From: a virus
DNA: 40,872 nucleotides
Virus record (IMG/VR): IMGVR_UViG_3300010413_001149
Coordinates: 1 to 40,872 of that record
Reading direction: 5' to 3' (one strand)
In this document: positions 1 through 19,702 of the stretch, piece after piece
Layout of the letters: each line of letters begins with the position of its first letter
Position numbering within the stretch: the stretch's first letter is position 1
Notes under the pieces: generated by a model
Database searches by the model: none
Seen by the model: only the letters and a program-made list of their open reading frames with translations
What the model was told of the DNA's origin: nothing
Made by a program: the position numbers and the translations under genes

Positions 1-1
1 A

Positions 2-175
2 ATTAAATGTTTAATGGAATGTATATGCTATAATGTAAAAAGTTATATTATTCAATATCGCAGACATATTGGCAATAAAAGCACAAGGAATGCCGGAAAG
101 ATGAAAGAATATGAAGAAATATTTAAAGCAAGATTAAGAGAAAGATATAAAGATATATGGACAGTGAAATATTAA
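2..175 (+). CDS. C-terminal end of a family 2 glycosyltransferase (partial)
   Basis: The reading frame is open from the left edge and stops at 173-175, so only the last 57 residues are present. They closely resemble the C-terminus of the complete GT2 encoded at 4581-5213: YRRHIGNKSTRNAGKMKEYE here against YRRHRGNKVLLNAGKLKHYE there, followed in both by a basic Arg-Glu-Arg-Tyr-Lys tail. The two are therefore probable paralogues. This tail is the cap after the GT-A fold; the catalytic DxD region lies outside the window. The stop overlaps the next gene by 19 bases, which fits one polycistronic mRNA. Confidence 0.75.
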   Translation: MKCLMECICYNVKSYIIQYRRHIGNKSTRNAGKMKEYEEIFKARLRERYKDIWTVKY

Positions 176-819
176 ACAATGATCTATTGATTGATTATGC
201 TGAATATATAAAATGGACAGGATCGCTAGAGGAGTTATGGAATATATTATATAAATATTCAAATAATGCTTTGTATATGGAATGGTATCAAGAAAATCCT
301 AAAACTTTAATCGAAAGAAAAGAGTTTTATACATATAACAAAATGTATTTACCAGAATTAGTTAGGTGGAATATAGAGAGCAGAAAATCAATAAAAAAAA
401 TAGTTAATTTTTGTATTGAAAAAAAAATAAGTAGAATTTGTGAATATGGTAGAGGTATAGGAACTATATCAATTGAATTATTTAAAAATAAAATTCATTC
501 TTTTGGTTATGAAATAAATAATAGTTGTAATAATTTTTATATATATAGATTGAAAAAATATGGTTTTTATAATAACTCATTAAAATATATCCTCAAAAAA
601 GAAATGGTTATATGCTTAGATGTATTAGAGCATCTTGAAAAACCTATTGAAATATTAAATATTTTATTGAATGATTATGATTATATAGCTGTCAATTTTT
701 CAGAAAATTTTGATATCCCCATGCATTTGGATTCTAATAAAAAATATATAAAGGAATTTAAAGAGATCATGGGCAAATATAAAATGATTCAACAAGATAT
801 ATATGAGGTTAATCCATGA
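157..819 (+). CDS. SAM-dependent methyltransferase (class I)
   Basis: A 220-residue protein with a class I methyltransferase core. The SAM-binding motif I is EYGRGIGTISIELF (about residues 96-109), an acidic residue follows near 119, and a CLDVLEHLEKP segment (153-163) matches the D-x-x-E-H motif of methyltransferase types 11/12. The first 90 residues are an extra AT-rich N-terminal region that I do not recognise. Its likely role, from context, is methylation of a sugar or lipid-linked intermediate, because it sits between glycosyltransferase genes. The ATG overlaps the previous gene by 19 bases and the stop overlaps the next start (ATGA), so translation is probably coupled. Substrate unknown. 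Confidence 0.75.
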   Translation: MDSEILNNDLLIDYAEYIKWTGSLEELWNILYKYSNNALYMEWYQENPKTLIERKEFYTYNKMYLPELVRWNIESRKSIKKIVNFCIEKKISRICEYGRGIGTISIELFKNKIHSFGYEINNSCNNFYIYRLKKYGFYNNSLKYILKKEMVICLDVLEHLEKPIEILNILLNDYDYIAVNFSENFDIPMHLDSNKKYIKEFKEIMGKYKMIQQDIYEVNP

Positions 820-2276
820 AAACAATTATCGGTTTAATAATGACATATAACGAAATTGATTTTATAGAAATGTGGCTTAAAAATGTTGAGTATATGGTTG
901 ATAAAATATTGATAATGGATGGCGGAAGTACTGACGGAACGATCGCAATTATAAATAAATATATAGAAGATAGAAGATATAAAACACCAATTGAATTAAT
1001 TATTGATCCACAGAAAGGCGAAAATTATAACGATCAAGAGTATAATCACCGGGAAAGACGTAATAAATTAATCAAATTAGCTGCCGGAAAGTCTGATTAT
1101 ATATTTCAGATGGATGTTGACGAGAGCATAAAAATTATTGATGCAGATATTTTGAGAGAATTAATAATTAGAGATAGATTAGTATATACATTTCCAAGAA
1201 AAGATTTTTGTTTTCATCCGCATTATTATCGGAAACGGTGTAATAGTCGTGTGCCGTGGCTGTATAAAAATAATGTTGGTATAGAATACATTGACGACGA
1301 TCCCCCACATGAACCACTTGGATATAAGGGTAAAAATTTAATGTCATTGTCTAAGGAATATAAAGAGGACACGGATATTTTAATTTATCATTGGCATTAT
1401 TGTTATGGACGTAAGGCCATGCGCGATTATCAGATACCAAATTGGAAAAGATTTTTAGTTAGCCGCAAATGGGCGATTGAGCATAAAGAAGAAGAAGGCC
1501 TTGTTAAATATGATAATATTCCATTTGATTATTATATATATTGTGAGAGGCCGCCACAAACAATCCAGGCAGTAACAATGGTTTATAACGAAGTTGATTT
1601 TATAGAAATGTGGCTTAATAATATTTCTAAATTTGTAGATAGTATTTTGATTATGGATGGTGGCAGTACGGATGGAACACTCGATAAAGTTAGAGAATGG
1701 CGTAGTTATTCGGATATAAAAATTGATTTTTTTATAGATAAACAATCAGGTGAAGATTATAATGATAAAACTTTTGATCACGCTGGAAGATGGAATAGAT
1801 TAATTGATATGGCAACAGGCGATTATATTTTACAAATTATGTGTGATGCTATTTTCCCCGAAGATGATCCAGAATTATTGCATAATTTAATTTTATTAGA
1901 AAAGTGGGTTTATGTATTCAAATGTTATAATTTTTGGTATTCTCCGTATATATATAAGAGCGTGAACCGTGTCCCGCGATTATTTAAGAAGGGATTGGGT
2001 ATTAAATATGGAACTGAAAATCCACCACACGAAGCGACACAATTGAATGGAGTTAATCTTTTAGAGGTTAAAAATAGGCTTGAGACTGATATACCAGTAT
2101 ATCATTATCATTACTGCCATGGCCGGAAATGTTACCGGGACACAGACGCTCAAAATATTGATGAATTAATCAAAAAACGGAATTTTGTTGAGAAAAATTA
2201 TGTTGACATTGGCTGGAAAAAATTAGATTATACGCTGCCTGAAAGTTATAGGAGATATTGTGAAAAAAATACTTAG
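816..2276 (+). CDS. Double-domain family 2 glycosyltransferase
   Basis: A 486-residue fusion of two homologous GT2 (GT-A fold) domains. Domain 1 has TYNEIDFIEMWL (10-21), ILIMDGGSTDGT (31-42) and a DVDES acid motif (100-104). Domain 2 begins near residue 248 with VYNEVDFIEMWL and ILIMDGGSTDGT, but the position equivalent to DVDES reads MCDAI (about 342-346), so the first Asp is lost. Each domain ends in the same signature: HWHYCYGRKAMRD in the first and HYHYCHGRKCYRD in the second. This is an internal duplication of about 240 residues. GT2 enzymes transfer a sugar from an NDP-sugar in the cytoplasm. The second domain may be catalytically altered or serve acceptor binding. The ATG overlaps the upstream stop (ATGA). 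Confidence 0.85.
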   Translation: MKTIIGLIMTYNEIDFIEMWLKNVEYMVDKILIMDGGSTDGTIAIINKYIEDRRYKTPIELIIDPQKGENYNDQEYNHRERRNKLIKLAAGKSDYIFQMDVDESIKIIDADILRELIIRDRLVYTFPRKDFCFHPHYYRKRCNSRVPWLYKNNVGIEYIDDDPPHEPLGYKGKNLMSLSKEYKEDTDILIYHWHYCYGRKAMRDYQIPNWKRFLVSRKWAIEHKEEEGLVKYDNIPFDYYIYCERPPQTIQAVTMVYNEVDFIEMWLNNISKFVDSILIMDGGSTDGTLDKVREWRSYSDIKIDFFIDKQSGEDYNDKTFDHAGRWNRLIDMATGDYILQIMCDAIFPEDDPELLHNLILLEKWVYVFKCYNFWYSPYIYKSVNRVPRLFKKGLGIKYGTENPPHEATQLNGVNLLEVKNRLETDIPVYHYHYCHGRKCYRDTDAQNIDELIKKRNFVEKNYVDIGWKKLDYTLPESYRRYCEKNT

Positions 2277-3159
2277 TTTTGATTGCCATGAAGCTTTATT
2301 AACTCTTTATTCTAAGCTTGGTTATGATATGGATTTGATGCATTATAAAGATATTTATTCCTGGCGAGAACACTATAGACCAATACCTAAAAATATACGG
2401 ATATTGCCTAAAGATTATAAAGTCAATCCGGACGATTATTTTTGTTGTTTGATATTTAATAGACACACTCAATTTTTGCGAGTGAAAGATTTGGGGTTGC
2501 CAATATTTTTACAGTTTGCAACAAGTAAATGTAATGAGCCAGATTTGAGTGGATTAGAAAATGTCAATATTGCATTTTGTGGATATAATCAAAAGATGGA
2601 ATATGGATACGAAAATACAAATTATCCTGTTATCTGGTATGGTATAGATGCGAATGAATTTAAAGGATATAAGGGAAATGCGGGATATATTTTGACTACT
2701 GTAAATGATTATAGAATTCGTGAAAAAGTAACTAGGTTTTTTATGTATGAGCTGTTAACAAATGGATTACCTGCAATTAATTACGGAGAACAGGAAGACG
2801 ATTGGCCATGCCCCAAAAGTAAATCATATGAGCATATGAAACAGATATATAGAGAAGCCGCCATTTATTTGGATACAACTTTACATAGTCCACTTTCTTT
2901 TTCTGTTTTGGAGGCTATGGCTACCGGCATGCCAGTTGTAACAACTAGACACGATGACATGGATCTTATAATAAATAATAACGTTAATGGAATAATAAAT
3001 AATCTTGCCCATTATTTGAGGGACGAAATAGAAAATTTATTGAGTAGTAGAAGGTATAGAAAAAGATTAGGAGAAAATGCAAGAGAAACAATAAAGCAAC
3101 GATTTACAATAGATAAATTTTGTGAAAAGTGGCATAAATATTTTAAGCAGGTGTTATAA
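2260..3159 (+). CDS. GT4-like glycosyltransferase (GT-B fold)
   Basis: 299 residues. The start is GTG at 2260 behind GGAG at 2251-2254, and the gene overlaps the previous one by 17 bases. The C-terminal half carries the GT4 donor-site signature SPLSFSVLEAMATGMPVV near residues 210-227, followed by a typical DLI-NNVNGI segment and a terminal KQRFTIDKFCEKW helix. The usual first Glu of the E-x7-E motif is replaced here (the segment begins HSPLSFSVLE), a deviation worth noting. The N-terminal half is shorter than in typical 350-400 residue GT4 enzymes. It probably adds one sugar in the cluster A pathway; donor and acceptor are unknown. Confidence 0.75.
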   Translation: MKKILSFDCHEALLTLYSKLGYDMDLMHYKDIYSWREHYRPIPKNIRILPKDYKVNPDDYFCCLIFNRHTQFLRVKDLGLPIFLQFATSKCNEPDLSGLENVNIAFCGYNQKMEYGYENTNYPVIWYGIDANEFKGYKGNAGYILTTVNDYRIREKVTRFFMYELLTNGLPAINYGEQEDDWPCPKSKSYEHMKQIYREAAIYLDTTLHSPLSFSVLEAMATGMPVVTTRHDDMDLIINNNVNGIINNLAHYLRDEIENLLSSRRYRKRLGENARETIKQRFTIDKFCEKWHKYFKQVL

Positions 3160-3160
3160 T

Positions 3161-4390
3161 ATGGAAGTTAATTGGGATTTAATAATGCGGAAAGAAAAGG
3201 TTTTATATGTATTTAGTTTTGGGTGTCCAAGATCCGGCACTACATTTTTGCAATATGTACTTAATCAAGGACGTGGATATTATCATGCAAAAATAACAGA
3301 AAATATGAATTTTCACCCCGGTAATAATCCGAATGCTTTATATCATATTAATGATATGCTTGGCCATATGGGAGATCAAGTGTTATTTGTACGGATTAAA
3401 AGAAATCCGATAGATATATTTGAGAGTTTTCATGCCGCGAGATTAGAAGATTCTGTAAATAGGGGCCTTAAAGACAATACCGATGAGATGATTTATGATT
3501 ATATAGAGCACGAATCTATAGGCGTTGATCATATAAAAAGAGAATTTCCACAGTTAAATTTAATAGAGGTGAAATATGAAGATTTAGGTGATTATATAAA
3601 AAGAAAAGAATTTTTATCTAAATTATGTAAATTTTTACCCAAAGGAAATGAGGGTGTAATAAAGATTGCTTTAAATGATTTTGATAAACAGTTTGTAAGA
3701 GAAGGTAAAAAAAGTAGGAATATAACGAGAAAATTGTTGAGTGCTGATAAAATAAAAGAGATTAAATTATTATTACGATCTACATTTATTCGAGAAGGGT
3801 ACGGAGAGAAAAAATATACAGATGAAATAACTTTTTCTACCTGGCGTAGAGGTATAGAACATTTCAAGGAATGGCGCAAACATCAAGCAGAAAGTACCGA
3901 AATATCATTTAGAAATAAAGTTATTATGTTATGTGATCCTTATGTTTATCCGGATCCACTTATTATATTTAATTGTGCTAATATGACGGGCAAAGTTTTA
4001 GATATCGGATGTGGTGGCGGGCTAAAGAGTTATTTTCCGCTGGCCCAATATATAGGTATAGATCCAATTGCAAAAACAGATGATGAAAAACAGATATATC
4101 ATGGAATTGGTGAGAATCTTAAAAGATATAAAGATGGCGAAATTGACAATATATTCTGTAAATCGGTTTTGCAGCATTCTTATAAACCGGAAATGATTTT
4201 AAGTGAATGTTTCAGGGTTTTAAAAAAGAAGGGGCGGTTATATATGACTGTATTTTATGATCAAGTTGCCGGATATGTTACACATGCATTTACAACACCA
4301 AAAGTAATAGAATATTTAATTAATGCCGGATTTAAGCTTGTTCATAACTTTGAGACAAAAAATTCAGGCTATTTTATAGCGGAGAAATAA
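3161..4390 (+). CDS. Sulfotransferase-methyltransferase fusion protein
   Basis: 409 residues from the ATG at 3161 (AGGTG upstream); the ATG at 3185 is also possible. The N-terminal domain is a PAPS-dependent sulfotransferase: the 5'-phosphosulfate loop GCPRSGTTFL is at residues 21-30 and the 3'-phosphate-binding stretch VRIKRNPIDIFESF near 77-90, where Arg and Ser are the expected contacts. The C-terminal domain, from about residue 275, is a class I methyltransferase with motif I VLDIGCGGGLKSYF, an IGIDPI acidic strand and an ECFRVLKKKGRLYMTVF strand. Sulfotransferases move sulfate from PAPS to a hydroxyl or amine. One polypeptide that can sulfate and methylate suggests both act on the same glycan. 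Fusion partners of this kind are unfamiliar to me. Confidence 0.85.
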   Translation: MEVNWDLIMRKEKVLYVFSFGCPRSGTTFLQYVLNQGRGYYHAKITENMNFHPGNNPNALYHINDMLGHMGDQVLFVRIKRNPIDIFESFHAARLEDSVNRGLKDNTDEMIYDYIEHESIGVDHIKREFPQLNLIEVKYEDLGDYIKRKEFLSKLCKFLPKGNEGVIKIALNDFDKQFVREGKKSRNITRKLLSADKIKEIKLLLRSTFIREGYGEKKYTDEITFSTWRRGIEHFKEWRKHQAESTEISFRNKVIMLCDPYVYPDPLIIFNCANMTGKVLDIGCGGGLKSYFPLAQYIGIDPIAKTDDEKQIYHGIGENLKRYKDGEIDNIFCKSVLQHSYKPEMILSECFRVLKKKGRLYMTVFYDQVAGYVTHAFTTPKVIEYLINAGFKLVHNFETKNSGYFIAEK

Positions 4391-4580: not shown

Positions 4581-5213
4581 ATGAAAATAACAACCATAAT
4601 ACCCACAATACCGGAACGTAAGAAAATGCTAAAAGAGGCGGTTGAATCTTGGAAAATGCAGGTTTATAGCGATAAAGAATTAATTGTTGTTGAGGATATT
4701 GACAAAAAAGGTGTATCATGGGCTTGTAATCGTGGAATAGAAAAGGCTAGTGGCGAGATAATTAATATTTTACATGACGACGATAAATATTATAATGAAG
4801 ATGTTTTATTTAATATATTTTGGAAATTTAATTTTAACGAATGTGATTTTTTATGGACTGGATATAAAGAATTTTGTAGGACAGATAAAGAGATTAAAGC
4901 AAAATGTATAACCACAAGTGATATTTGGAAAGAAGATATAGTTAATTTATGTTCAATTTTTTGGATGAAATCTATTCATAATAAAATAGGTTATTTTGAT
5001 GAACGGTTATTATCCAATGAGGATTGGCATTTCAAAATTAGACTATTTATGGAATGTATAGGAAAATCATTTAATATTATATCCGTATATTATAGGCGAC
5101 ATCGCGGAAACAAAGTATTATTGAATGCCGGAAAATTAAAACATTATGAAAAAATAATGAGAGAAGATTTAAAGGAACGGTATAAACATTTATTTGATGG
5201 GGATATGATATGA
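4581..5213 (+). CDS. Family 2 glycosyltransferase
   Basis: A 210-residue compact GT2. It starts with TTIIPTIPER (4-13), the usual first strand of the GT-A fold, continues with ELIVVEDID (33-41), and has the metal-binding acid motif HDDD (65-68). Near residue 146 SNEDWHFKIRL matches the E/D-D-x-x-x-x-x-R catalytic-base region of GT2 enzymes. Its C-terminus is paralogous to the partial gene at the left edge. The ATG follows a GGGGTG ribosome site. The stop overlaps the next gene by 4 bases. Sugar specificity cannot be read from the sequence. Confidence 0.85.
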   Translation: MKITTIIPTIPERKKMLKEAVESWKMQVYSDKELIVVEDIDKKGVSWACNRGIEKASGEIINILHDDDKYYNEDVLFNIFWKFNFNECDFLWTGYKEFCRTDKEIKAKCITTSDIWKEDIVNLCSIFWMKSIHNKIGYFDERLLSNEDWHFKIRLFMECIGKSFNIISVYYRRHRGNKVLLNAGKLKHYEKIMREDLKERYKHLFDGDMI

Positions 5214-5422
5214 AAAAAGAGTTAAGTAAAATTATAGAGAAATTTAGAAATATAGACAATTTATATACAGATGTTCCCGGTAATCATATAGAAATTATTG
5301 AAACACCAGAAAAATACGAAAATATAGTTAATATATATAAAAATGGCCAGTTATTTGCTACTATGCCAGTGAGTCAGTTTATAAAATTAAAAAATTATAG
5401 TAATTGGGTTAATAAATTATGA
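5210..5422 (+). CDS. Small hypothetical protein
   Basis: 70 residues, overlapping the GT2 gene upstream (ATGA) and the GT9-like gene downstream by 4 bases each. That tight coupling supports it being translated. It looks like a small alpha/beta protein: a charged N-terminal helix, then strands with IEIIETPEKYENIVNIYKNG. There are no Cys pairs, signal peptide or membrane segment. No family recognised. Confidence 0.55.
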   Translation: MKKELSKIIEKFRNIDNLYTDVPGNHIEIIETPEKYENIVNIYKNGQLFATMPVSQFIKLKNYSNWVNKL

Positions 5423-6363
5423 ATATATTATGTTGTAGAGCATGGGGAATCGGCAATATTATAATGTGTACTCCTGCCTTATTAGCGCTTAGAAAGTTAT
5501 ATCCGGACGCTAGGATTGATTTAATTAGTGATCTTGTGGCGGATATGCTTATTAATGACCCTAAAATATTAGATAATATATATAGCAGATGGCACGACGT
5601 AGAACAGAACTTATATGATGTTGTTATATATTTTCATCCCGGATCAACACATTATAAATTCCCCGATATCCCGAAACAAATCCGGCATAAGACAGACAAT
5701 TACCAGATAAGCGAAATAAATAGTAACCTGGATTTAATAGCAAGGTTGGGTGATATAGGAGATTATGCACAATATAGGTCATTTATAAGTAGTGTAGAAG
5801 TATTTAAGAGAAACAATGAAAGAAAGGCTATTTGTATTCATATGGGAAAGGCACCTAAAGAAGAAGTTGATTTTATACGCCGAGAATGGATTGACGAATA
5901 TTGGCTTGAATTAATCAATAAATTGACAGGTAAAGACTATAAAGTTGGGATTTTGGGTGGTAAAGAAGAAGAAGAAAATATAAAAACTTGGTTTGATAAT
6001 TATGGAAGATCATTAAAACATAATGAATTAGTATATAATTTTGTTGGAAGTTGGGATATAGAAAGCACGTGTATTATATTATCATCGTGTGATTTATTGA
6101 TCACGGTTGACTCTGGGGTAATGAATTTGGGCAGGGCGGCAAAAACTCCGATGATTGTACTTGGCGGATGTCTACATAAAAATAAATCCGGCCCCTGGGA
6201 AGATCATATAAGATTTATCTACAAAGAAGTATGTAAATATCAACCATGTTATGGTGTCAATGGTCATTTTAATATAAATTGTATTGATAGATTATGTATG
6301 AAGGCCATTAAACCGGACGAAATTTTTAATATTGCGAAAGAGTTATTAAATGAAAGAGAGTAA
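5419..6363 (+). CDS. GT9-like (heptosyltransferase-family) glycosyltransferase
   Basis: 314 residues with the features of family 9 GT-B enzymes (ADP-heptose:LPS heptosyltransferases). The N-terminus has WGIGNIIMCTPALLALRKL (9-27), matching the GD-x-(I/V)-x-TPA-x-x-x-L loop. The donor-site segment TVDSGVMNLGRAAKTP is near 229-244 and is followed by MIVLGG. This family builds LPS inner core in Gram-negative bacteria, but phage and plasmid members use other sugars, so the heptose assignment is only by family. It overlaps both neighbours (4 bases upstream, 14 downstream), again pointing to a single mRNA. Confidence 0.8.
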   Translation: MNILCCRAWGIGNIIMCTPALLALRKLYPDARIDLISDLVADMLINDPKILDNIYSRWHDVEQNLYDVVIYFHPGSTHYKFPDIPKQIRHKTDNYQISEINSNLDLIARLGDIGDYAQYRSFISSVEVFKRNNERKAICIHMGKAPKEEVDFIRREWIDEYWLELINKLTGKDYKVGILGGKEEEENIKTWFDNYGRSLKHNELVYNFVGSWDIESTCIILSSCDLLITVDSGVMNLGRAAKTPMIVLGGCLHKNKSGPWEDHIRFIYKEVCKYQPCYGVNGHFNINCIDRLCMKAIKPDEIFNIAKELLNERE

Positions 6364-6559
6364 TCAATCAGAAATCGAATTAAAAACAGCCATTATCAAT
6401 GGCAAGGTACATTTAATAATACTAATTGATAATGATAGATTTAGTATTGATTTAGGCATATTTGATGCATTATACCGTAATATATTATATGAGACGGCGA
6501 AACAATTACAAATAATAACTGCCGTGAAAACTGATGATGATAAATTAGAGGTGAACTAA
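6350..6559 (+). CDS. Small hypothetical protein
   Basis: 69 residues, starting inside the last codons of the GT9-like gene and ending on the A of the next gene's ATG (TAATG). The sequence alternates strands and a helix (INGKVHLIILIDNDRFSIDL, then FDALYRNILYETAKQL). It is acidic at the C-terminus and has no recognisable domain. The tight overlaps on both sides argue for a real, coupled gene. Confidence 0.5.
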   Translation: MKESNQSEIELKTAIINGKVHLIILIDNDRFSIDLGIFDALYRNILYETAKQLQIITAVKTDDDKLEVN

Positions 6560-6939
6560 TGAAATATAGGGAAAGTTTAACTGTCGGGGATAGATTAGTA
6601 GATCGTTATAAGGAATATTTTGACAATTTATTACATACACAACCAGAGATATTTTTTGAATTAATGCGAGAATATAAGAAAAGCATAGAATCAAAGGTTA
6701 AAGAAATACCATATCGGGACTGTGTAATCGAATATATTTTAAACAAAAAACATGAATGTGGTGGAATTAAGATAAATAAATTAAATGTTGAATTAACTAT
6801 CAGAGAATCGCTAGTATTCCAACTTTATTTCGTTGATCAATTAGATGTTGAAACAATAGCACATCTTTTAGAATGCACGGAATCTGCTATATATAATCAT
6901 ATCGGTAGAATCAAAAAAAAGTTTAATGAAAAAACTTGA
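6559..6939 (+). CDS. Sigma-70 region 4-like HTH protein, possible late regulator
   Basis: 126 residues. The C-terminal third (about 85-124) reads as a sigma-region-4/LuxR-type helix-turn-helix: LTIRESLVFQLYFVDQLDVE is followed by TIAHLLECTESAIYNHIGRI, in which LECTESAIYNHIGR is the recognition helix. The N-terminal part is helical and contains no sigma region 2. Small proteins of this kind (RinA/ArpU-like) often sit just before phage terminase genes and activate late transcription. That role is inferred from position; a small-terminase role is less likely because a better candidate lies at 7615. It ends the cluster A operon, just before a candidate promoter and a terminator. Confidence 0.6.
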   Translation: MKYRESLTVGDRLVDRYKEYFDNLLHTQPEIFFELMREYKKSIESKVKEIPYRDCVIEYILNKKHECGGIKINKLNVELTIRESLVFQLYFVDQLDVETIAHLLECTESAIYNHIGRIKKKFNEKT

Positions 6940-7117: not shown

Positions 7118-7576
7118 ATGATTGTATGGTTGACCGGGCCAAGTGGGGCAGGGAAAACAACTCTAGCAAAAAAATTAATTAATAATGGGTTATGGATAAA
7201 TTTAGATGGCGACGAAATGCGGGCAACTATATCAACAGATGAGGGATTCTCACGGGAAGATAGAAGAAAACATAATTTACGGATTGCCAGATTAGCGCAA
7301 TTTTTACATAGTCAATATAATTCATTATTAGGGATTAACATAGTTGTTTCAGTAATAGCACCTATGGAAAATGTCCGTAAAGAAATCGAAAAAATATGTC
7401 ATCCCATATGGATTTATATAAAAAGGAAGTTGCCACAAAGAGAGGGTCATTTTTATGAAGTCCCGGAAAGTCCCGAATATATTATTGATAATGATGAATT
7501 ATCAGAAGAAATGGCATATCACAAATTGGTTGGAATTGTAATGCAAGAGAGATCAATTGAGAATAAAATTGAATAA
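7118..7576 (+). CDS. APS kinase-family protein (short form)
   Basis: 152 residues from the ATG at 7118, chosen because AGGAG lies at 7108-7112; an upstream ATG at 7088 lacks a ribosome site. APS-kinase landmarks appear in order: P-loop GPSGAGKTT (7-15), LDGDEMR (29-35), GFSREDRRKHNLRIARLA (43-60), the VSVIAPM strand (78-83), and PESPEYIIDND (116-126). APS kinase phosphorylates adenylylsulfate to PAPS, the donor for sulfotransferases, and this window encodes two of those. The protein is about 50 residues shorter than E. coli CysC (201 residues); the lid segment between APM and PESPE, which normally carries a DPKGLYKKAR-like motif, is reduced. It could instead be a related sugar or phosphoramidate kinase, such as the CysC-like enzymes of Campylobacter capsule loci. 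Confidence 0.75.
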   Translation: MIVWLTGPSGAGKTTLAKKLINNGLWINLDGDEMRATISTDEGFSREDRRKHNLRIARLAQFLHSQYNSLLGINIVVSVIAPMENVRKEIEKICHPIWIYIKRKLPQREGHFYEVPESPEYIIDNDELSEEMAYHKLVGIVMQERSIENKIE

Positions 7577-7614: not shown

Positions 7615-7980
7615 ATGGATGAAAAGGGAAGATGGGAACCTGGGGAAAGTGGGAATCCCAACGGGAGACCACCTAAAGAGATTTCATTGACAGAATTGGC
7701 TAAACAATACTTAAGAAAAGAATTAACTAACGAGAAAGACGAAAAGAAGTTATTAAAAGAAATATTTATTGAAAAGGTTTTTAATATGGCCATTGCGGGA
7801 GATATATCAGCCATTAAACTTTTATTTAATTATGTTGAGGGTATGCCAAGCCAATCAATTAAATACCAGGATTTGAGTATTAAGAATCCGATCGCAGAAG
7901 AAATAAGGAAATTAAGAGAGGGGATTAATAAAGAGGAAGATGTTAAAGAGAACGATATTACTGATATTTCTGGTGGTTAG
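7615..7980 (+). CDS. Probable terminase small subunit / DUF5681-like protein
   Basis: 121 residues. The N-terminal GRWEPGESGNPNGRPPK (5-21) is the hallmark PG-x-SGNP-x-GRP motif of DUF5681-type phage proteins. These are usually encoded directly before the large terminase and are often assumed to be its DNA-recognition subunit. The rest is helical (LAKQYLRKELTNEKDEKKLL, then an AGDISAIKLLFNYVEG stretch) with an acidic tail. The start is ATG at 7615 behind AGGAT. Its function as small terminase is inferred from position and family, not from a recognisable HTH. Confidence 0.6.
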   Translation: MDEKGRWEPGESGNPNGRPPKEISLTELAKQYLRKELTNEKDEKKLLKEIFIEKVFNMAIAGDISAIKLLFNYVEGMPSQSIKYQDLSIKNPIAEEIRKLREGINKEEDVKENDITDISGG

Positions 7981-7981
7981 T

Positions 7982-10692: not shown

Positions 10693-10868
10693 TGAATATT
10701 TGCTGTTGTCAATTAGCCGGAACCCAGGCTTGTGAAGATTGTCCCAATAATAAAATGATGCCACAATGGGAATTTAGAACTAATTATTTTCAGCCCAAAG
10801 AAATAATCAAAGAAAAGTATGATAATAAGGGTAGATTAATAGAAAAGATTATAGAATATGAGTTTTAA
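10692..10868 (+). CDS. Cys-rich microprotein
   Basis: 58 residues, starting at the ATG that shares its A with the portal stop. It begins MNICCCQLAGTQACEDCPNN, a cluster of five cysteines (residues 4, 5, 6, 14, 17) suitable for binding zinc, followed by a charged tail. The next ORF has a similar Cys pattern, so the two may be diverged duplicates. It may be a small regulator or a metal-binding accessory protein; the function is unknown. Confidence 0.55.
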   Translation: MNICCCQLAGTQACEDCPNNKMMPQWEFRTNYFQPKEIIKEKYDNKGRLIEKIIEYEF

Positions 10869-10879
10869 GGGTGATTTGG

Positions 10880-11017
10880 ATGAATATGATATGTTGGTGT
10901 TATAATGTATGTATTAAAAAATGTAAAAAATGTCCCTTAGCTTATGGTTTTAAAATAGTTGAATATAAAAAATTTGATAGGGTTGAGTTTGTTTATTTAG
11001 TTAAAGATGAGTGTTAA
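10880..11017 (+). CDS. Second Cys-rich microprotein
   Basis: 45 residues, MNMICWCYNVCIKKCKKCPL at the start: five cysteines spaced C-x-C-x4-C-x3-C-x2-C. It resembles the preceding 58-residue protein in beginning MN with a Cys cluster and then a CP. The 3' end overlaps the minor head gene by 11 bases. GGGTG lies at 10869-10873. No family recognised; a zinc-binding role is plausible. Confidence 0.5.
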   Translation: MNMICWCYNVCIKKCKKCPLAYGFKIVEYKKFDRVEFVYLVKDEC

Positions 11018-11921: not shown

Positions 11922-11923
11922 TA

Positions 11924-11941
11924 TTTCGGACCAGTCCGAAA
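11924..11941 (+). other. Intergenic hairpin between minor head and scaffold genes
   Basis: TTTCGGA-CCAG-TCCGAAA forms a perfect 7-bp stem directly after the stop codon. No T-run follows on the plus strand, so it is more likely an mRNA stability or processing element than a terminator. A second, weaker stem (GGTTTTAT with ATAAAATC, about 11951-11978) lies between it and the scaffold ribosome site. Confidence 0.45.
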
Positions 11942-11992
11942 AAAATAAAAGGTTTTATTCAAGGTGCGGGATAAAATCATAAGGAGTTAAAA

Positions 11993-12661
11993 ATGAGTAG
12001 TGAACAAAAAGTATCGGTTGTTAAGGAAGGAAAACAGGGAGATATTATTGACACACCAGATAATGATCATGAACCAAAACAATCGGCCGTCAATCAAAAA
12101 CAGGTTGACGATGAGAAAAAAACAAACAGGACATTCAATCAGAGTGAGTTTGACTCTCGGTTAAAAGAAGAACAAAAAAAGATTAAAGATCAATATCGAG
12201 ATTATAACGACATTAAAACACAATTATCAGAATTGAAACAGAAAGAAGAAGAACGGAAATTGGCTGAAATGTCCGAGATTGAGCAATGGAAAACAAAATA
12301 TGATAGCATCACGACGGAGAATGAAGAACTCAAAAAATCGTTAGAATCTGAAGTTATTAAAGGTTTAAGAAACGAAATACTCAGTAATAACGAATATAGC
12401 ATTTTAACAAGACCTTACAAAAAAATGGTTGTTGGCAATACAGAATCAGAAGTTAGGGAAAGTGCACAACAAATACTTGAGGAGTTTAAAAAGGATATTG
12501 AAAAGATAAAGGGTAAATCAGTAGATTTTACTCCTCCGACAGACCTGAAACAAGAAATTGAAAAGAAACCTGAGCCTAAAACACCAGCTATGCGGTTGAA
12601 AGATGCTGTAAAAAAAGTATTTTTGGATAATGCCTTCAGACCCTCCAATCGTGAAGACTAA
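11993..12661 (+). CDS. Capsid scaffolding protein
   Basis: 222 residues, strongly charged and almost wholly helical. A disordered acidic N-terminus leads to a long coiled coil (about residues 40-120, with KLAEMSEIEQWKTKYDSIT and TENEELKKSL heptads), and a basic C-terminus MRLKDAVKKVF may bind the capsid protein. The length, composition and position directly before the major capsid gene are typical of internal scaffolds (GP20-like), which guide procapsid assembly and are then lost. Ribosome site AAGGAG lies 8 bases before the ATG. Confidence 0.75.
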   Translation: MSSEQKVSVVKEGKQGDIIDTPDNDHEPKQSAVNQKQVDDEKKTNRTFNQSEFDSRLKEEQKKIKDQYRDYNDIKTQLSELKQKEEERKLAEMSEIEQWKTKYDSITTENEELKKSLESEVIKGLRNEILSNNEYSILTRPYKKMVVGNTESEVRESAQQILEEFKKDIEKIKGKSVDFTPPTDLKQEIEKKPEPKTPAMRLKDAVKKVFLDNAFRPSNRED

Positions 12662-12677
12662 TAGGGGGATTATTTAA

Positions 12678-13631
12678 ATGGCTACTGCTTATATTGACAA
12701 AACTAGTTTGGCGCAAGTTATTGGAACATCGTTTGATAATATCACGACCAAACCCTTGCGACCCAAATATATTTTTGATGCGCTCTGTCAAGAGCGTATA
12801 TGGAATCTGGGAACTAACCCCAATCGGGGTGACGCTCTTCAGTTTCCTGTATTAAGTGCCCTGAGTTCAAACACTGGTGCACTCGATCCTACCGCTGCCA
12901 CCATTACCGGGAGCCAGACGCTGACCTACACTCGACGTGCTGTAACCCTTGAAGCTTATGGTGATCATGGTGTTTTGGATCTTTTAGAATCTCACAATGA
13001 GACGTTTATCAATGACGTTGCCGATATGGCTTTTAGTTTGACCGATCAGGCAATGAATTCATTGAACAAGCTGGCGCGTACCGCTATGGACTTAAATAAG
13101 TATAGTAACGAGACTAGCGGCACTCTGTCACAAACATATCATTATTACGGCTCGTATGGTGCTGGCGCATCAACTGCCGGCCCGATGCGTGCTAAAACTG
13201 TACGTGAGGTTGTATCTGACATGAGGGCTGACAATGTACAGCCTTTTGCAGATGGTTTGTATCGTGGTATTATTCATCCGATACAATACACCCAGCTTCG
13301 CGCAGATAGTGATAACGCTGCCTGGACAAAATCTACTCAATATGTTACCAACGCTCCATTCACCATGGGCGAAATGGGAGATTTTGAGGGTGTCCGGTGG
13401 GCGGTTAATAATGAAGTGAGTGGAGCCGGAACGGGCACGATTAGTGCATACATTATGGGACAAGAATTTTGTGGTAAGGCCGTAGGGCGCGACGTTAATG
13501 TCAAAACTAACGACAAACTTGAAGGGCCTCAGGAAAATCTGCTTGTAATGCACTGGAATGCGCTTGTAGGGTATAAAATTATTCGGCGTGAGGCGGGCCG
13601 GATTATTGAATGTACTAACACTAAAGAATAA
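12678..13631 (+). CDS. Major capsid protein (N4-gp56-like family)
   Basis: 317 residues. It resembles the N4-gp56 family of HK97-fold capsid proteins: an early RPKYIFDALCQERIWN region, a TYTRRAVTLEAYGDHG strand pair, a long helix with TDQAMNSLNKLARTAMD, the YRGIIHPIQYTQLRAD segment typical of the A-domain, and a C-terminal strand HWNALVGYKIIRREAGRI. It self-assembles into the icosahedral shell. Base composition is visibly richer in G+C than in the flanking glycan genes, as expected for a highly expressed structural gene. It is preceded by a strong AGGGGG ribosome site. Glycan cluster B starts only 59 bases downstream. Confidence 0.85.
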   Translation: MATAYIDKTSLAQVIGTSFDNITTKPLRPKYIFDALCQERIWNLGTNPNRGDALQFPVLSALSSNTGALDPTAATITGSQTLTYTRRAVTLEAYGDHGVLDLLESHNETFINDVADMAFSLTDQAMNSLNKLARTAMDLNKYSNETSGTLSQTYHYYGSYGAGASTAGPMRAKTVREVVSDMRADNVQPFADGLYRGIIHPIQYTQLRADSDNAAWTKSTQYVTNAPFTMGEMGDFEGVRWAVNNEVSGAGTGTISAYIMGQEFCGKAVGRDVNVKTNDKLEGPQENLLVMHWNALVGYKIIRREAGRIIECTNTKE

Positions 13632-13690: not shown

Positions 13691-15712
13691 ATGATTAAAC
13701 TTTCCGCATGTCTAATCTTGAAAAATGAGGGAGAAACAATCTACAGATGTCTTGACTCGATAAAAGATTTTGTCGATGAATATATAATCGGAATTGATGA
13801 TAAGACAGACGATAATACAGAAGAACAAATACAGAAGTTTTTTAACGATAACGATAAACCTAAAATTATTTATAAATATACCTGGCAGAATGATTTCAGT
13901 AAGGCCCGTAATGAGGGAATGGATAAAGCGACAGGTGATTATTTATTAATTATGGATGGTCACGAGTTTTTTCCAAATGCTTGGTATAATATCACACAAG
14001 AAAATACACTCGATGTACAAAGACAAGTATTACCGCATATAAAGCCACTAATTGAGAAAGAAAAGCCGGACGAAATATATTTTTATCTTTATCAACAGCC
14101 ATTTATCGGAGAGATCCCGAATAATTTCTTTTTGCAGCCGAGGATATACAGAAATGATCCACAGATAAGATTTGGCCGGGCTGCTCATAATACAATACAA
14201 AATACCGATCGTGACAAATCAATGCATTGTCCAGAAGTTTTACTTATTCATGATGCACCGGAAAATAATAGAGAAGATCGTAAAAAACAACGTGTGGAAA
14301 TGAATACAGAAGAACTACAGAAGATGATCAAAGAGAAAGAGAATGATACGAGAGCCATGTTTTATTTGGGAAATACGTTAATTGAGGCTGGTAATTTTAA
14401 GGGTGCTATTAAAGCGTTTAATAACTATCTTAAACACCGACAAGATGAAAATTCGGAGAAATATCAAGTCTTAATACACCAGGCGATATGTTATAATAAG
14501 CTCAAACAGATAGATAAGGCAATTGAATGTCTATATAAAGCGATGCATATAAACCCGGCACGCAGGGACGCGCGTATTCTAATGGGCGATATTTATATTG
14601 ATAACAAAGACTACGATAAAGCCGAAATTAATTATAAATTGGCTCTGGTCTTAAAACCTCAACCATCCCGGATGTTCCAAAATGGCGCGGCACTTACATT
14701 TGATCCACACCAAAAATTAGCACATATATATAAACTAAAAAATGATATGGTTAAAGCAATTGCACATTTACGTAGAGCTTATCAATATTTTCCCAGTCCA
14801 CAGTGGGCGGCAGAAATAGAACGGATGAGCGCTGGAAAGCCAAATATTTTAATCGTTGATAAAATTGGATCATTTACAAAAAAATTATATGGACATTTAG
14901 AACGAACTGGTATATATAATATAGCCAGAACGCAGCAATATAATTCTCAATTAGGTTCATGGGCTGATTATATATTTTGTGAATGGGTTGACGAGAACGC
15001 TATTCGATGTTCAAGAGAGTATCCGGAAAAGACTGTAATCCGATGTCATGGATATGAATATTATCTGTTAAAAAATGTATTTAGAAGTATAGATTTTTCA
15101 AAGATTAAAAAGATTATTTTTGTAGCTGTTCATATTATGAACAAAGCTGTAAAAGAGTTCAACATACCAAAAGAAAAGGTTGAAATGATTTACAATGATG
15201 TCGATGTCGAGAGTTTTTATATTAAAAATGAAGATCGCGATCCGCTTAATATCGGATATGTTGGTTTTATTAACGAGAAGAAAAATCCTTATTTGTTATG
15301 CAGAATTATCAAAAAGAATCCGAAATTTAAGTTTCATTTGCGCGTAGACCACCAGTCGCCATTTTGGGAAAGCGCTATGAAGTATGAATTAAAAGATTGT
15401 AAGAATGTTGTGTACCATGGACGATATGACGATCTAAATGATTTCTGGAATCAAATGTCCGGTGTTTTGAGTACGTCTATTATTGAGTCGTTCAGCTACA
15501 ATATAGCTGAGGCCATGGCGTGCGGATGCCGGCCATATATATATGATTGGGAGGGATCAAGAAATATCTGGAATAAAGAATGGATATTTAAAGATTTGCC
15601 TGTATTAAGTACCAAAAAATTAACACGTGAGAAAATGGACGAATATAGACTATATATAATTGATCTATTTACAAATAAGTTACCTGAACTCGAAAAGGAA
15701 TTAATCGCATGA
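13691..15712 (+). CDS. GT2-TPR-GT4 fusion glycosyltransferase
   Basis: 673 residues with three parts. Residues 1-200 are a GT2 domain (ACLILKNEGETIYRCLDSI, then YIIGIDDKTDDNTEEQI) whose acid motif reads MDGHEFF (88-94), lacking the second Asp of the usual DxDE. Residues about 217-325 hold tetratricopeptide-like repeats (AMFYLGNTLIEAGNFKGAIK; YDKAEINYKLALVLKP). Residues about 380-660 are a GT-B/GT4-like domain ending STSIIESFSYNIAEAMACG, the E-x7-E donor signature. TPR-linked transferases such as SunS and OGT act on proteins, and this gene directly follows the capsid gene, so capsid or tail glycosylation is a reasonable inference. The ATG has AAGGAG upstream. Confidence 0.8.
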   Translation: MIKLSACLILKNEGETIYRCLDSIKDFVDEYIIGIDDKTDDNTEEQIQKFFNDNDKPKIIYKYTWQNDFSKARNEGMDKATGDYLLIMDGHEFFPNAWYNITQENTLDVQRQVLPHIKPLIEKEKPDEIYFYLYQQPFIGEIPNNFFLQPRIYRNDPQIRFGRAAHNTIQNTDRDKSMHCPEVLLIHDAPENNREDRKKQRVEMNTEELQKMIKEKENDTRAMFYLGNTLIEAGNFKGAIKAFNNYLKHRQDENSEKYQVLIHQAICYNKLKQIDKAIECLYKAMHINPARRDARILMGDIYIDNKDYDKAEINYKLALVLKPQPSRMFQNGAALTFDPHQKLAHIYKLKNDMVKAIAHLRRAYQYFPSPQWAAEIERMSAGKPNILIVDKIGSFTKKLYGHLERTGIYNIARTQQYNSQLGSWADYIFCEWVDENAIRCSREYPEKTVIRCHGYEYYLLKNVFRSIDFSKIKKIIFVAVHIMNKAVKEFNIPKEKVEMIYNDVDVESFYIKNEDRDPLNIGYVGFINEKKNPYLLCRIIKKNPKFKFHLRVDHQSPFWESAMKYELKDCKNVVYHGRYDDLNDFWNQMSGVLSTSIIESFSYNIAEAMACGCRPYIYDWEGSRNIWNKEWIFKDLPVLSTKKLTREKMDEYRLYIIDLFTNKLPELEKELIA

Positions 15713-15912
15713 TGTTAAAGGAATTAAAGAAAGGGGAATTTTTTAAGTTGTTACAGGGACATGAAAAATTTAAACAATGTTTATTTTTAAAAATTAATAA
15801 TGATATCCCTTCATGTGATTGTTATAATTTTGATTATAATATATTATATCGGCTTAATTATATGGACGAAATTGAGAAAATTAATATCAAATTGGGGGCA
15901 AATAATGTATAA
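15709..15912 (+). CDS. Small hypothetical protein
   Basis: 67 residues overlapping the upstream stop by 4 bases; two adjacent ATGs are possible starts. The LKELKKGEFFKLL beginning recalls small beta-barrel-like phage proteins that start with a K-x-L-K-x-G-(D/E)-x-F motif, but I cannot name a family. It overlaps the next gene's ATG at 15905. Confidence 0.5.
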   Translation: MMLKELKKGEFFKLLQGHEKFKQCLFLKINNDIPSCDCYNFDYNILYRLNYMDEIEKINIKLGANNV

Positions 15913-16480
15913 TGAATCTTATTTTAACGATAAATGGCGAACTGTAATGAAATGTTTACCAACTGGTGGTGCATATCATTTTAATCTCCGTCAATATGGA
16001 TACGATATTACAAAAAATATAATAGCAGATGGTAGTAAAATATTCGATTATGCGTGTGGGCTTGGTCTTATAGATATACAACTAGAAAAAGAAAAGAATT
16101 GTAAAGTGTACGGATGCGACATTTCAGAAGTGGCAGTTAATTATGTAAACTCGAAATTAAAATATAAAACACATTTTAAAATAGGATCTGATTTTTTCGG
16201 TTCTGATTATGATTATATTTTAGCAATTTATTTTTTGGAGCATATTAAAAAACCATGGGAGTGGGTTGAACAGGCTTTTAAATTTGGTAAAAAGGTTATT
16301 TGTATTGTGCCAAATAATTTTAGAAGATCCGGTGAACATAAGGACATGGCATGGAAAAACTGGACTGAATTTTATAGAATGTTTGATCAGTTTAATCCTG
16401 TGAGAATTGACGGAAATAAATATCCAAAAAGTCTAAGTCATGCGTTTAAACATCCGATTATTTTGTTTAATGGTAAATAA
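15905..16480 (+). CDS. SAM-dependent methyltransferase
   Basis: 191 residues from the ATG at 15905, chosen for the strong GGGGG ribosome site just upstream. Motif I is IFDYACGLGLIDIQL (46-60), the acidic strand end CDIS is at 71-74, and YFLEHIKKPWEW (109-120) is the type 11/12 motif post-I. KVICIVPNNFRR follows as strand five. Probably methylates a sugar within cluster B. It differs from the methyltransferase at 157-819 and from the fused one at 3161-4390, so the window encodes three separate methyltransferase domains. The stop overlaps the next ATG (TAATG). Confidence 0.8.
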   Translation: MYNESYFNDKWRTVMKCLPTGGAYHFNLRQYGYDITKNIIADGSKIFDYACGLGLIDIQLEKEKNCKVYGCDISEVAVNYVNSKLKYKTHFKIGSDFFGSDYDYILAIYFLEHIKKPWEWVEQAFKFGKKVICIVPNNFRRSGEHKDMAWKNWTEFYRMFDQFNPVRIDGNKYPKSLSHAFKHPIILFNGK

Positions 16481-16617: not shown

Positions 16618-16633
16618 ACAATGGGTGATAAAA

Positions 16634-16894
16634 ATGAAGTATAAACAATATAATACTATGTTATATGTCGAGTGGGTCGATAGTGTAGCCGGTACAGACA
16701 GTTGGTATTCAAAGAGCGACATCGAAACTTATTTTTGTTCACAAGATATAAAAAATACAAAGACGTGTGGTTTTTTTGTCAATCAAGATAGGGAAATTTT
16801 AATGTTATGTTTAAGTATAAGCGAAGATCAATTTGGTCAATACATTTTAATTCCTAAAAAAGCGATATTAAAATTAGAGGTGTTGCATGTGTAA
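16634..16894 (+). CDS. Small phage protein with WVDS motif
   Basis: 86 residues; the ATG at 16634 is preferred (GGGTGAT just before it) over GTG at 16625. The layout YVEWVDSVAGTDSWYSKSDI, then CGFFVNQDREILMLCLSIS and a closing YILIPKKAI resembles a widespread small phage protein with a V-x-W-x-DS ... W ... IPK-x-AI pattern of unknown function. This resemblance is from memory of the family pattern. The stop overlaps the next gene by 8 bases. Confidence 0.55.
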   Translation: MKYKQYNTMLYVEWVDSVAGTDSWYSKSDIETYFCSQDIKNTKTCGFFVNQDREILMLCLSISEDQFGQYILIPKKAILKLEVLHV

Positions 16895-17483
16895 ATTAAT
16901 TGTAACTAGCATGTGTACTATTGATACACCATACGAAAAAGAAATCGAACGGTTAATTAAATCAATGAAAAAGTTTGATTTGGAATATCATATTGAACGA
17001 TTTAAGAATACCGGGAATTGGACTAAAAATTGCAAGTATAATACAGAGTGTATCAAGAATACAATGGTTAAATTTCCAAGACGTAATATTTTATACGTTG
17101 ATGCTGATGCCGAATTTTTAGAAAAACCGATACTTTTTTATAGAAAGGATATAGCTGATATTGCTTTGCACATGATACAATATGAAAAACATATAGAACA
17201 TTGTACCGGAACCCTTTTTATTAAAAACAACATCAGTAATTTTTATTTAATGTCAAAATGGGATTGTTTAAATAGGCAAAGAGAAGATTTGGACGATCAA
17301 CAGTGCCTCGAACTGGTATTAAAAGAAGTTGATTATGACAAGGTTTTAAATTTACCTAAAGAATATTGCTATATTCCTGGGAATAGAATACAGAAATTAA
17401 TGCCTACACAAAACGTGATTATTAAGCATTACCAGGCAAGTAGAAAGTATAAAAAATTAATTAATGATAAACGAAATATTTAA
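16887..17483 (+). CDS. Probable GT-A-fold glycosyltransferase
   Basis: 198 residues. ILYVDADAEFLEKP (68-81) is a classic DxD metal- and nucleotide-sugar-binding motif at the end of a beta strand, as in nucleotide-diphospho-sugar transferases. The N-terminus (LIVTSMCTIDTPYEKEIERL) is a Rossmann-like first strand and helix, and a CTGTLFIKNN segment followed by DDQQCLELVLKE fits the acceptor side. Short for a full enzyme but complete at both ends. The start overlaps the upstream gene. Donor sugar unknown. Confidence 0.7.
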   Translation: MCKLIVTSMCTIDTPYEKEIERLIKSMKKFDLEYHIERFKNTGNWTKNCKYNTECIKNTMVKFPRRNILYVDADAEFLEKPILFYRKDIADIALHMIQYEKHIEHCTGTLFIKNNISNFYLMSKWDCLNRQREDLDDQQCLELVLKEVDYDKVLNLPKEYCYIPGNRIQKLMPTQNVIIKHYQASRKYKKLINDKRNI

Positions 17484-18165
17484 AAAATATAAAAATAAGC
17501 ACATAGGAGAAACTTGTATATTTTATGGAACCGGGCCGAGTATTAATAATTTTATTAATAATTTTGATGCGATAAGAGTAGGTACAAATGAGATAATATA
17601 TAAGCCATATTTTATGCATTATTATTTCATTGGTGATCCTGGTAATAAGGGCCGTGGTTATTTATCTGATCCAGAGGCATACGATAATTACAATCCATTG
17701 ATAGCCAAATTTACCAGAAAAAAACATTATAAAGTAGCCGGATTTTCAAAAGGTAATTATGAAATTACAGATAGATTGTATTATGATGGCATATATTATA
17801 CCGATATAAGCCAGGGAATGGGATGTCTTGCATCTATAAGCATGGAAGCCATGCAGTTTATTTTGTATGCAGGATTTAAGCGCATTTATCTTGTTGGTCA
17901 TGATTGCACATATGATCATGGTAGTTTTTGGGATAAGGAACAGTCAAAAAAAATAGATGCCGGACAAATGATTAAGGCCTGGCGCTACATGAAAAAATTT
18001 ATTGATGATAATTACCCCGGTGTTAGTGTATATAGTATCAATCCGGTTAATCTTGATATATTCCCAGAGTGGAAACAGCAATACATTATAGAAAATATTG
18101 ATGGGATAGATTATATCAGTATATATATTGATGGCGAAATAAAGAGGTATAGGTGGGAAAAGTAG
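17464..18165 (+). CDS. DUF115 / GT42-like putative sugar transferase
   Basis: 233 residues. CIFYGTGPSINNF (about 18-30) is the nucleotide-binding G-x-GPS loop shared by DUF115 (Maf-type) proteins and GT42 sialyltransferases such as CstII. Later, ISMEAMQFILYAGFKRIYLV is followed by GHDCTY, matching the conserved region after the acceptor lid, and VYSINPVNL matches the last strand. DUF115/Maf proteins attach nonulosonic acids to flagellin. The gene lies between a GT-A enzyme and a sulfotransferase, so a role adding an acidic sugar is possible. It starts inside the preceding gene without a clear ribosome site and overlaps the next by 13 bases, so coupled translation is likely. Confidence 0.7.
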   Translation: MINEIFKKYKNKHIGETCIFYGTGPSINNFINNFDAIRVGTNEIIYKPYFMHYYFIGDPGNKGRGYLSDPEAYDNYNPLIAKFTRKKHYKVAGFSKGNYEITDRLYYDGIYYTDISQGMGCLASISMEAMQFILYAGFKRIYLVGHDCTYDHGSFWDKEQSKKIDAGQMIKAWRYMKKFIDDNYPGVSVYSINPVNLDIFPEWKQQYIIENIDGIDYISIYIDGEIKRYRWEK

Positions 18166-18845
18166 GTATATTTATAGTGGGCGGTATGAAATGTGGGACT
18201 ACTAGTCTATTTAATTACTTGATACACCATAATCATATTGCCGGTGGTATGAAAAAAGAACCTTTTTATTTTTCTACAAACTATAAGGGCGATGATAGTT
18301 ATACCGGATATGAAAAACAATATAATAATAGATTTAATGTTGATGCAAGTACTAATTATCTGGTATATCATGTCACGGCAGAACGAATTTATAAATATAA
18401 TTCGAGCGCTAAGATTATTATTTTATGCCGCGAACCTATACGCCGCTGTTGGTCACATTGGTGTCATAATAAGCGCGTCCGGGGCCGGGATAGAAGAACA
18501 TTATTGCAGGCAATTAAAGATAAAGAAACAGATTTGACATATAAAGCCTATAAGACAATAGGATTGTATAAAAAACATCTCGACTGGTGGTATTCAATAT
18601 GGCCTAAGAAACAGATTTGTGTTGTTAAATCTGAAGACTTATTCTGCGAACCTGACAATCTGACCGGACAAATATTTGATTTTTTGGAAATTGATAAACC
18701 AGAAAAAATAAATTATAAAAACTGGTCGCCCAAACAATCATCTGGTCAAATGCCCGATGATTGTGTTGATGTATTATGTGAGTATTATAAAATTCCAAAT
18801 AAAGAGTTAAATGATAGTTATGGTATTTCATGGGGGTATCAATGA
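18153..18845 (+). CDS. PAPS-dependent sulfotransferase
   Basis: 230 residues, GTG start behind AGAGG. The 5'-phosphosulfate-binding loop is GGMKCGTTSLFNYL (10-23), and the 3'-phosphate site IIILCREPIRRCWSHW is near 88-103, with the Arg and Ser of the classical R-x7-S motif. KEPFYFS (about 35-41) matches the region carrying the catalytic residue in heparan N/O-sulfotransferases, and PKKQICVVKSEDLF matches the next conserved strand. It transfers sulfate from PAPS to a carbohydrate. It is a second, unfused sulfotransferase, and the window also holds an APS-kinase-family gene that could supply the donor. Confidence is high for the family; the acceptor is unknown. Confidence 0.9.
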   Translation: MGKVGIFIVGGMKCGTTSLFNYLIHHNHIAGGMKKEPFYFSTNYKGDDSYTGYEKQYNNRFNVDASTNYLVYHVTAERIYKYNSSAKIIILCREPIRRCWSHWCHNKRVRGRDRRTLLQAIKDKETDLTYKAYKTIGLYKKHLDWWYSIWPKKQICVVKSEDLFCEPDNLTGQIFDFLEIDKPEKINYKNWSPKQSSGQMPDDCVDVLCEYYKIPNKELNDSYGISWGYQ

Positions 18846-19702
18846 AAGTATCAATAATAATAATTAATTATAATGATAAAACACGCATTAATCGCGCAAT
18901 AGAATCGTGTATAAATCAGACATGGGAAGATAAGGAGGTGATATTAGTAGATGATGGATCCGATGAAGAAACAAGAGAAATATATAAAAAATACGCCTCT
19001 AAGATTAAACTGGTGCAACTGGAACGCGGAAAAGAGGAAACAGAAAGACGAACTCCTTCACGCGCAAGAAATGCGGGTATTAAAGTTGCAACTGGTGCTT
19101 TTATTTGTTTTCTCGATTCTGACAATTATTATGATCTTAACTTTGTCGCGGAGTGTATGAAATATAATTATAATGTAATGTTTTGCGACTGGCAAATAAT
19201 AGGATTACATAACGAAGTAATTAAAATCAATTCAGTATGGGATCAGAATAGATCACTACTGGACAATTATTTGAAATATACCAGATTGGATCATCAATGT
19301 TTAATGATAAAAAAAGAAATATTAGATCAAGTTGGTTATTATGACGAACGATTACCACGTTCCCAGGATTGTGATTTGATTGTCCGGTTAATGCGTAACA
19401 CGGAACAATGGAAATATATACCCAAGATATTATTCTTTTTTGAAAAACACGAAGAAGATCAAAATAAAGCCTTTGCTAGTTTGTACGGTAAAATGTTATG
19501 GACGCTTAAAAATAATATACCGATCCAATGGTTTGTATATTTAGTACAAGCCAATCCCGGTTATTTTTTGTGTATTTATCAGGCAATATATGATTTTATG
19601 CATAAAAAAGAATGGGAGGTTGAACGAAAAAGCGGTGAATTTAATAGAATGTATGTGCAATTTTTGCCTATACTTGAGGGGCAACAAAAAGAAAATGTAT
19701 AG
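18842..19702 (+). CDS. Family 2 glycosyltransferase
   Basis: 286 residues from the ATG at 18842, chosen because GGGGG at 18832-18836 is well spaced. SIIIINYNDKTRINRAIES (4-22) and VILVDDGSDEET (33-44) form the nucleotide-binding half, LDSDNYYDL (91-99) the DxD region, and RSQDCDLIVRLM the catalytic-base region. The C-terminal 60 residues are aromatic-rich and may contact membrane or acceptor. It is the last gene of cluster B; small virion-type genes follow. Confidence 0.85.
   Translation: MKVSIIIINYNDKTRINRAIESCINQTWEDKEVILVDDGSDEETREIYKKYASKIKLVQLERGKEETERRTPSRARNAGIKVATGAFICFLDSDNYYDLNFVAECMKYNYNVMFCDWQIIGLHNEVIKINSVWDQNRSLLDNYLKYTRLDHQCLMIKKEILDQVGYYDERLPRSQDCDLIVRLMRNTEQWKYIPKILFFFEKHEEDQNKAFASLYGKMLWTLKNNIPIQWFVYLVQANPGYFLCIYQAIYDFMHKKEWEVERKSGEFNRMYVQFLPILEGQQKENV

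Follow-up and report, generated by a model that had tools for sequence, protein, structure and literature searches.

What are glycosyltransferases, sulfotransferases and a member of the APS-kinase family doing among the head genes of a tailed virus? The stretch of DNA analysed here (hereafter the window) is the whole of the linear IMG/VR record IMGVR_UViG_3300010413_001149 (40,872 bp), yet it may be a genome fragment. It is the late region of a tailed virus, a part of its genome, and encodes a DUF5681 (TerS-like) protein, TerL, an SPP1-type portal, minor head, scaffold, major head and tape measure proteins, a glucosaminidase endolysin and an SSB. Our answer, which we hold to be rather likely, is that the late operon contains genes for building and sulfating a glycan, a module in which the kinase supplies PAPS and the likely target is the virion. 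The genes concerned are as follows.

157–819, + strand: possible methyltransferase, weak (Methyltransf_23, 17.4 bits, below the cut-off of 27; match to L018 3540–4700, E 2e-6)
816–2276, + strand: glycosyltransferase with two GT2 domains (PF00535, E 5e-15, two stretches)
2260–3159, + strand: GT1/GT4-type (GT-B) glycosyltransferase (PF00534, E 9e-11)
3161–4390, + strand: sulfotransferase–methyltransferase fusion (Sulfotransfer_3 PF13469, 34.1 bits, cut-off 27; Methyltransf_11 PF08241, 43.8 bits, cut-off 21)
4581–5213, + strand: GT2 glycosyltransferase (PF00535, E 1.7e-8)
5419–6363, + strand: GT9 (heptosyltransferase-type) glycosyltransferase (PF01075, E 1.2e-11)
7118–7576, + strand: short-lid APS-kinase-family protein (APS_kinase PF01583, 63.9 bits, cut-off 21.1, E 2e-17)
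7615–13631, + strand: DUF5681 (TerS-like) protein, TerL, portal, minor head, scaffold and major head protein, between the two enzyme clusters (Pfam and PHROGs)
13691–15712, + strand: GT2–TPR–GT4-like glycosyltransferase, 673 aa (PF00535, E 3.5e-17; TPR, E 6e-16; PF13692, E 1.7e-6)
15800–16480, + strand: SAM methyltransferase (PF13489, E 5e-9)
16887–17483, + strand: GT-A-like transferase, weak (PF03407 Nucleotid_trans, E 0.004, 17.6 bits, below the cut-off of 22)
17464–18165, + strand: DUF115/MptE-like, GT42-like transferase (PF01973, E 9e-6, 26 bits, below the cut-off of 34.6)
18153–18845, + strand: predicted PAPS-dependent sulfotransferase, 230 aa (Sulfotransfer_1 PF00685, 56 bits, cut-off 22, E 4e-15)
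18830–19702, + strand: GT2 glycosyltransferase (PF00535, E 3.6e-26)

The enzyme genes are all open, run in one direction (+) and mostly overlap or are closely spaced, as the initial annotation of this DNA had described, and its two clusters flanking and interrupting the head genes are borne out by Pfam and PHROG matches that place TerL through the major head protein between them. The GT2, GT4-, GT9-, GT-A- and DUF115/GT42-like transferases that it named were all found again with Pfam: four GT2 genes, the GT1/GT4-like and GT9 genes, two methyltransferase domains, two sulfotransferases and the APS-kinase-family gene score over the cut-off, and the GT-A-like gene, the DUF115-like gene and the first methyltransferase score below it. 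Three methyltransferase domains had been counted; those of the 3161 fusion and of 15800–16480 hold, but that of 157–819 reaches 17 bits against a cut-off of 27. The GT-A-like gene has relatives in the kinase-bearing viral contigs L018 (E 1e-24) and L022 (E 1e-16), and the DUF115-like gene weakly matches the phrog_4603 sialyltransferase (E 9e-6). Glycosyltransferase genes stand inside an operon of virion genes, one of the features expected of a phage virion glycosylation system.

GC content is ~28–32% in the two enzyme clusters versus 37–39% in the head genes between them; this A+T-richness fits a later acquisition of the clusters, with which it is compatible without proving it. TerL reaches only ~30% identity with its best matches in 50,697 phage records, and in these distant phages no such enzymes were evident in the open reading frames inspected. 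Single-protein scans with the window's sulfotransferase and major head protein gave no relatives, and neither sulfotransferase had a tblastn match in the same 50,697 records. The TerL and major head scans found no close relative of the backbone through which gain or loss of the module could be traced.

Both sulfotransferases proposed by the initial annotation score over their Pfam cut-offs and carry predicted 5′ and 3′ PAPS-binding motifs. An alignment of the 18153 protein with heparan 3-O-sulfotransferase 5 (E 4e-14) has GGMKCGTTSL, KKEPFYFS and REPIRRCWS in place; the protein shares with heparan sulfate 3-O-sulfotransferase and Sulfotransfer_1 proteins the 5′-phosphosulfate loop, the KE catalytic-glutamate motif and the 3′-phosphate-binding motif, and differs from them in being short (230 aa). 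The more diverged protein at 3161, for which this start fits better than 3122, has a 5′ loop CPRSGTTFL and, as judged from sequence, a 3′ motif RNPIDIFES of the RxPxxxxxS type. A sulfotransferase of similar size and architecture is encoded at 10070–11194 of the viral contig L007, which has backbone genes without a match to those of the window; Pfam confirms its sulfotransferase part, and its C-terminal half is methyltransferase-like by eye.

The kinase ORF is open from 7088, and the start at 7118 is favoured since GGAGATAATATG precedes it and the remaining family members start near the corresponding Met. The protein keeps the P-loop (Walker A), LDGDxxR and GFSxxDRxxxN motifs, residues G22, K23, D40–D42, R45, R59 and N63 are invariant in an alignment of 17 sequences, and the top PDB fold matches of its AlphaFold2 model (pLDDT 89.5) are all APS kinases (best E 1.7e-10, query TM-score ~0.7–0.78). 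Motifs and fold are thus those of canonical APS kinases (CysC, PF01583; Archaeoglobus 7yq1, human PAPSS1 2ofx), with which a short-lid relative on bacterial contig L028 also shares a gene place after CysDN. In contrast to them, the window kinase has LPQREGHFYE in place of the ~27-residue lid (CExRDxKGLY...FTGID), the KGLY/FTGI lid being missing from it and from all close short-lid relatives, and it scores half of the NCBIfam apsK equivalog cut-off (70 vs. 138.7 bits). The earlier assignment to the APS-kinase family is therefore upheld by Pfam, motifs and fold, but extends neither to the canonical lid nor to the apsK equivalog. Our first suspicion, raised by the missing lid, was that this is not an APS kinase; it was set aside, and the APS-kinase reading restored, on the evidence of the L028 operon and a fusion in viral contig L157 (below). 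The protein is placed in a short-lid branch of the family with a probable APS-kinase-like function, not in apsK, and is a probable PAPS former. Directly upstream, 6559–6939 encodes a small sigma-70 region 4-like protein, a possible late regulator.

Relatives were collected in two rounds, an alignment of the window and L007 kinases leading to 15 viral and 3 MAG contigs, and a second round to 196 viral stretches, 80 of them retained. Linkage was counted in the 43 short-lid viral records left after deduplication (1.60 Mb), with PF00685 or PF13469 taken as sulfotransferase, and in a random set of 50 viral contigs (2.42 Mb) chosen by an arbitrary 14-mer and unmatched for habitat. A sulfotransferase match at E≤0.01 was present in 29/43 kinase records vs. 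1/50 random contigs (Fisher p=1.8e-12), and a match over the curated cut-off in 17/43 vs. 1/50 (Fisher p=5.5e-6), counts that come from records that are not phylogenetically independent and include some weak matches. Kinase and sulfotransferase shared a strand in all 29 records, as genes of the largely co-directional phages often would, and were separated by a median gap of 1,267 bp, compared to ~8,200 bp expected by random placement. No sulfotransferase was detected in the other 14 short-lid records, several of which are short fragments. The frequency over cut-off is not different in viral kinases with a canonical lid (6/21, p=0.42); a sulfotransferase link special to the short-lid branch is rejected on this comparison, and the lid is not the distinguishing factor.

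Two loci bind the genes more tightly. Viral contig L157 (10004–10948) has a single 314-aa ORF that fuses APS_kinase (80.7 bits) to Sulfotransfer_1 (35.4 bits), and the bacterial MAG contig L028 (7836–11353) has the order CysD, CysN, short-lid kinase, sulfotransferase, with CysD and CysN named by NCBIfam models and a kinase 55–59% identical to that of the window. Independent evidence thus supports the link between kinase and sulfotransferase far beyond what chance would give, and the co-occurrence, the fusion and the operon are best read as phage provision of PAPS for sulfation. The initial annotation had proposed one pathway with its own donor kinase and a survey of relatives for co-occurrence; the co-occurrence in kinase-bearing viral records bears out the part that assigns the kinase to the sulfotransferases. 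Of the 15 viral contigs first found to carry the kinase, most also have GT2 genes. On viral contig L018 (35–13206), two sulfotransferase-like genes, several glycosyltransferases, sugar epimerase/reductase-like genes and a kinase–nucleotidyltransferase make up a glycan pathway that looks fuller than the window's, and L176 (486–2303), classed as viral, encodes a CysN–CysC fusion.

A further partner of these kinases, absent from the window, is a nucleotidyltransferase of ~110 aa (PF01467; motifs GRxQPxHxGH and ISATxIR) whose nearest solved relative is an archaeal NMNAT (PDB, E 2.6e-5) and which is also nearest to NMNAT in NCBIfam. It adjoins the kinase or is fused with it at 27/46 short-lid and 8/21 canonical loci vs. 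1/80 random viral loci (small HxGH examples fused to or adjoining phage APS kinases are L017 1630–1965 and L027 4715–5041), and is fused to a full-lid canonical APS kinase at L203 9578–10546; in L028, CysDN takes its place. In the reverse view, 75/80 nucleotidyltransferase loci have an APS-kinase-family gene within 4 kb, which argues against a plain NMNAT of NAD salvage, though many of those kinases are diverged. Our guess would be that it makes APS as a minimal ATP sulfurylase, a member of the same HxGH superfamily. PAPS synthetase, a fusion of ATP sulfurylase and APS kinase, likewise joins an HxGH nucleotidyltransferase to an APS kinase, as the relatives of the window kinase do; the phage protein differs in its ~110-aa length, its NMNAT-like sequence, which is not that of a sulfurylase, and its absence from the window. 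Cultured Casjensviridae encode diverged kinase–nucleotidyltransferase fusions (L295 8995–9735 and L297 8995–9732) with no sulfotransferase annotated nearby, the former adjoining a NADAR-domain gene.

In the mechanism that we propose, APS would be made by the ATP sulfurylase of the host, or in relatives possibly of the phage, and the short-lid kinase at 7118 would phosphorylate it to PAPS. A sugar chain assembled by the GT2, GT4, GT9, GT-A and DUF115 transferases, which the methyltransferases would cap or modify, would then receive sulfate on its hydroxyls or amines from the two sulfotransferases with PAPS as the donor; seven or more transferases would in this way serve a single pathway. We infer that the enzymes most likely decorate virion proteins, because they are encoded among the head genes.

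This late-operon position is also compatible with a target on the host surface, where sulfation or glycosylation of LPS, capsule or S-layer would block superinfection or progeny adsorption. GT9 and GT2 are enzyme types characteristic of surface polysaccharides, and one PHROG match is to GtrB-like O-antigen conversion; however, the genes lie inside the late head operon, unrelated viruses also place the kinase among packaging, head or other structural genes, and the genes read include no recognisable membrane flippase or anchored transferase, so that we regard a surface target as the less probable, though a serious, alternative. It is unlikely that the short-lid kinase acts on another substrate altogether, as a 3′-kinase for a different nucleotide conjugate, of which the cytidine diphosphoramidate kinase of Campylobacter, an APS-kinase homologue, would be the model, or as a ribosylnicotinamide-kinase-like enzyme paired with an NMNAT. 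The missing lid, the frequent partner closest to NMNAT and the NADAR-type neighbour of the Casjensviridae proteins all speak for such a substrate, but the CysD–CysN neighbour in L028, the sulfotransferase fusion in L157 and the attachment of the same nucleotidyltransferase to a full-lid APS kinase in L203 speak against it. Some phages glycosylate their DNA, and the window's transferases might accordingly modify DNA or nucleotides; we give this very little credence, since none of the proteins examined was recognisable as an enzyme of base hydroxymethylation or other DNA hypermodification, and we know of no role of sulfotransferases or GT9 enzymes in DNA modification.

Published work takes phage cysC as a gene of assimilatory sulfate reduction, both for 62 cysC in freshwater phages (PMC10914622) and where viral CysC clusters apart from prokaryotic CysC (PMC9529941), and the window kinase could by the same reasoning be an auxiliary gene that feeds host PAPS to sulfite and cysteine, unrelated to the sulfotransferases. 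Assimilation needs a PAPS reductase, and profile search found none over the cut-off in the 43 short-lid viral records, a count against it, and one in the 21 canonical-lid records; nor is one among the window's annotated genes. Sulfotransferases, in contrast, are common, near and once fused to the kinase, which makes the assimilatory role quite improbable here. Together with the L157 fusion and the L028 operon, the missing reductase ties the kinase to PAPS and sulfation and not to something else, and the short-lid branch looks like a supplier of PAPS for sulfation rather than a sulfate-assimilation gene. It shares with the published phage cysC that these are viral APS-kinase-family proteins, some very short, that form a virus clade, and is set apart by its linkage to sulfotransferases and not PAPS reductase.

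The initial annotation took the window's combination of glycosylation, methylation, sulfation and donor kinase to be undescribed. Phage cysC, viral sulfotransferases and virion glycosyltransferases have each been published, but a linkage of these parts was not found in the literature, and a search covering few subscription journals and preprints found no phage sulfation module. The likeness to mycobacteriophages, for which glycosylation of capsid and tail proteins is reported (Freeman 2023, cited in PMC12619734), would lie in phage-associated modification of capsid or tail proteins; sulfation and a donor kinase go unmentioned in the part of PMC12619734 consulted, and the window's system is predicted from its genes.

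It is probable that these viruses activate sulfate themselves and use it for the decoration of sugars, a role unlike that in sulfur nutrition usually given to such kinases. Phage cysC in viromes is counted as evidence for virus-driven host sulfur assimilation, an ecological claim that would change if the short-lid branch serves sulfotransferases instead; sulfated glycans would then be a new virus surface chemistry open to simple assays. More tentatively, viruses of bacteria and archaea might widely encode a compact module in which a ~110-aa NMNAT-like minimal ATP sulfurylase and a short-lid kinase make PAPS for neighbouring sulfotransferases acting on virus-built glycans; much of the 'sulfur assimilation' catalogued for phage cysC would then be virion or surface sulfation, with the window representing the kinase-plus-sulfotransferase form.

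Among the structural genes of the window, three encode proteins with a Laminin_G_3 (concanavalin A-like lectin) domain (20747–21529, slightly under the cut-off; 21577–22236; and 32217–32894), and an Imm-5-like protein at 37253–37993 is extremely alanine-rich and of low complexity, with AARAAA repeats.
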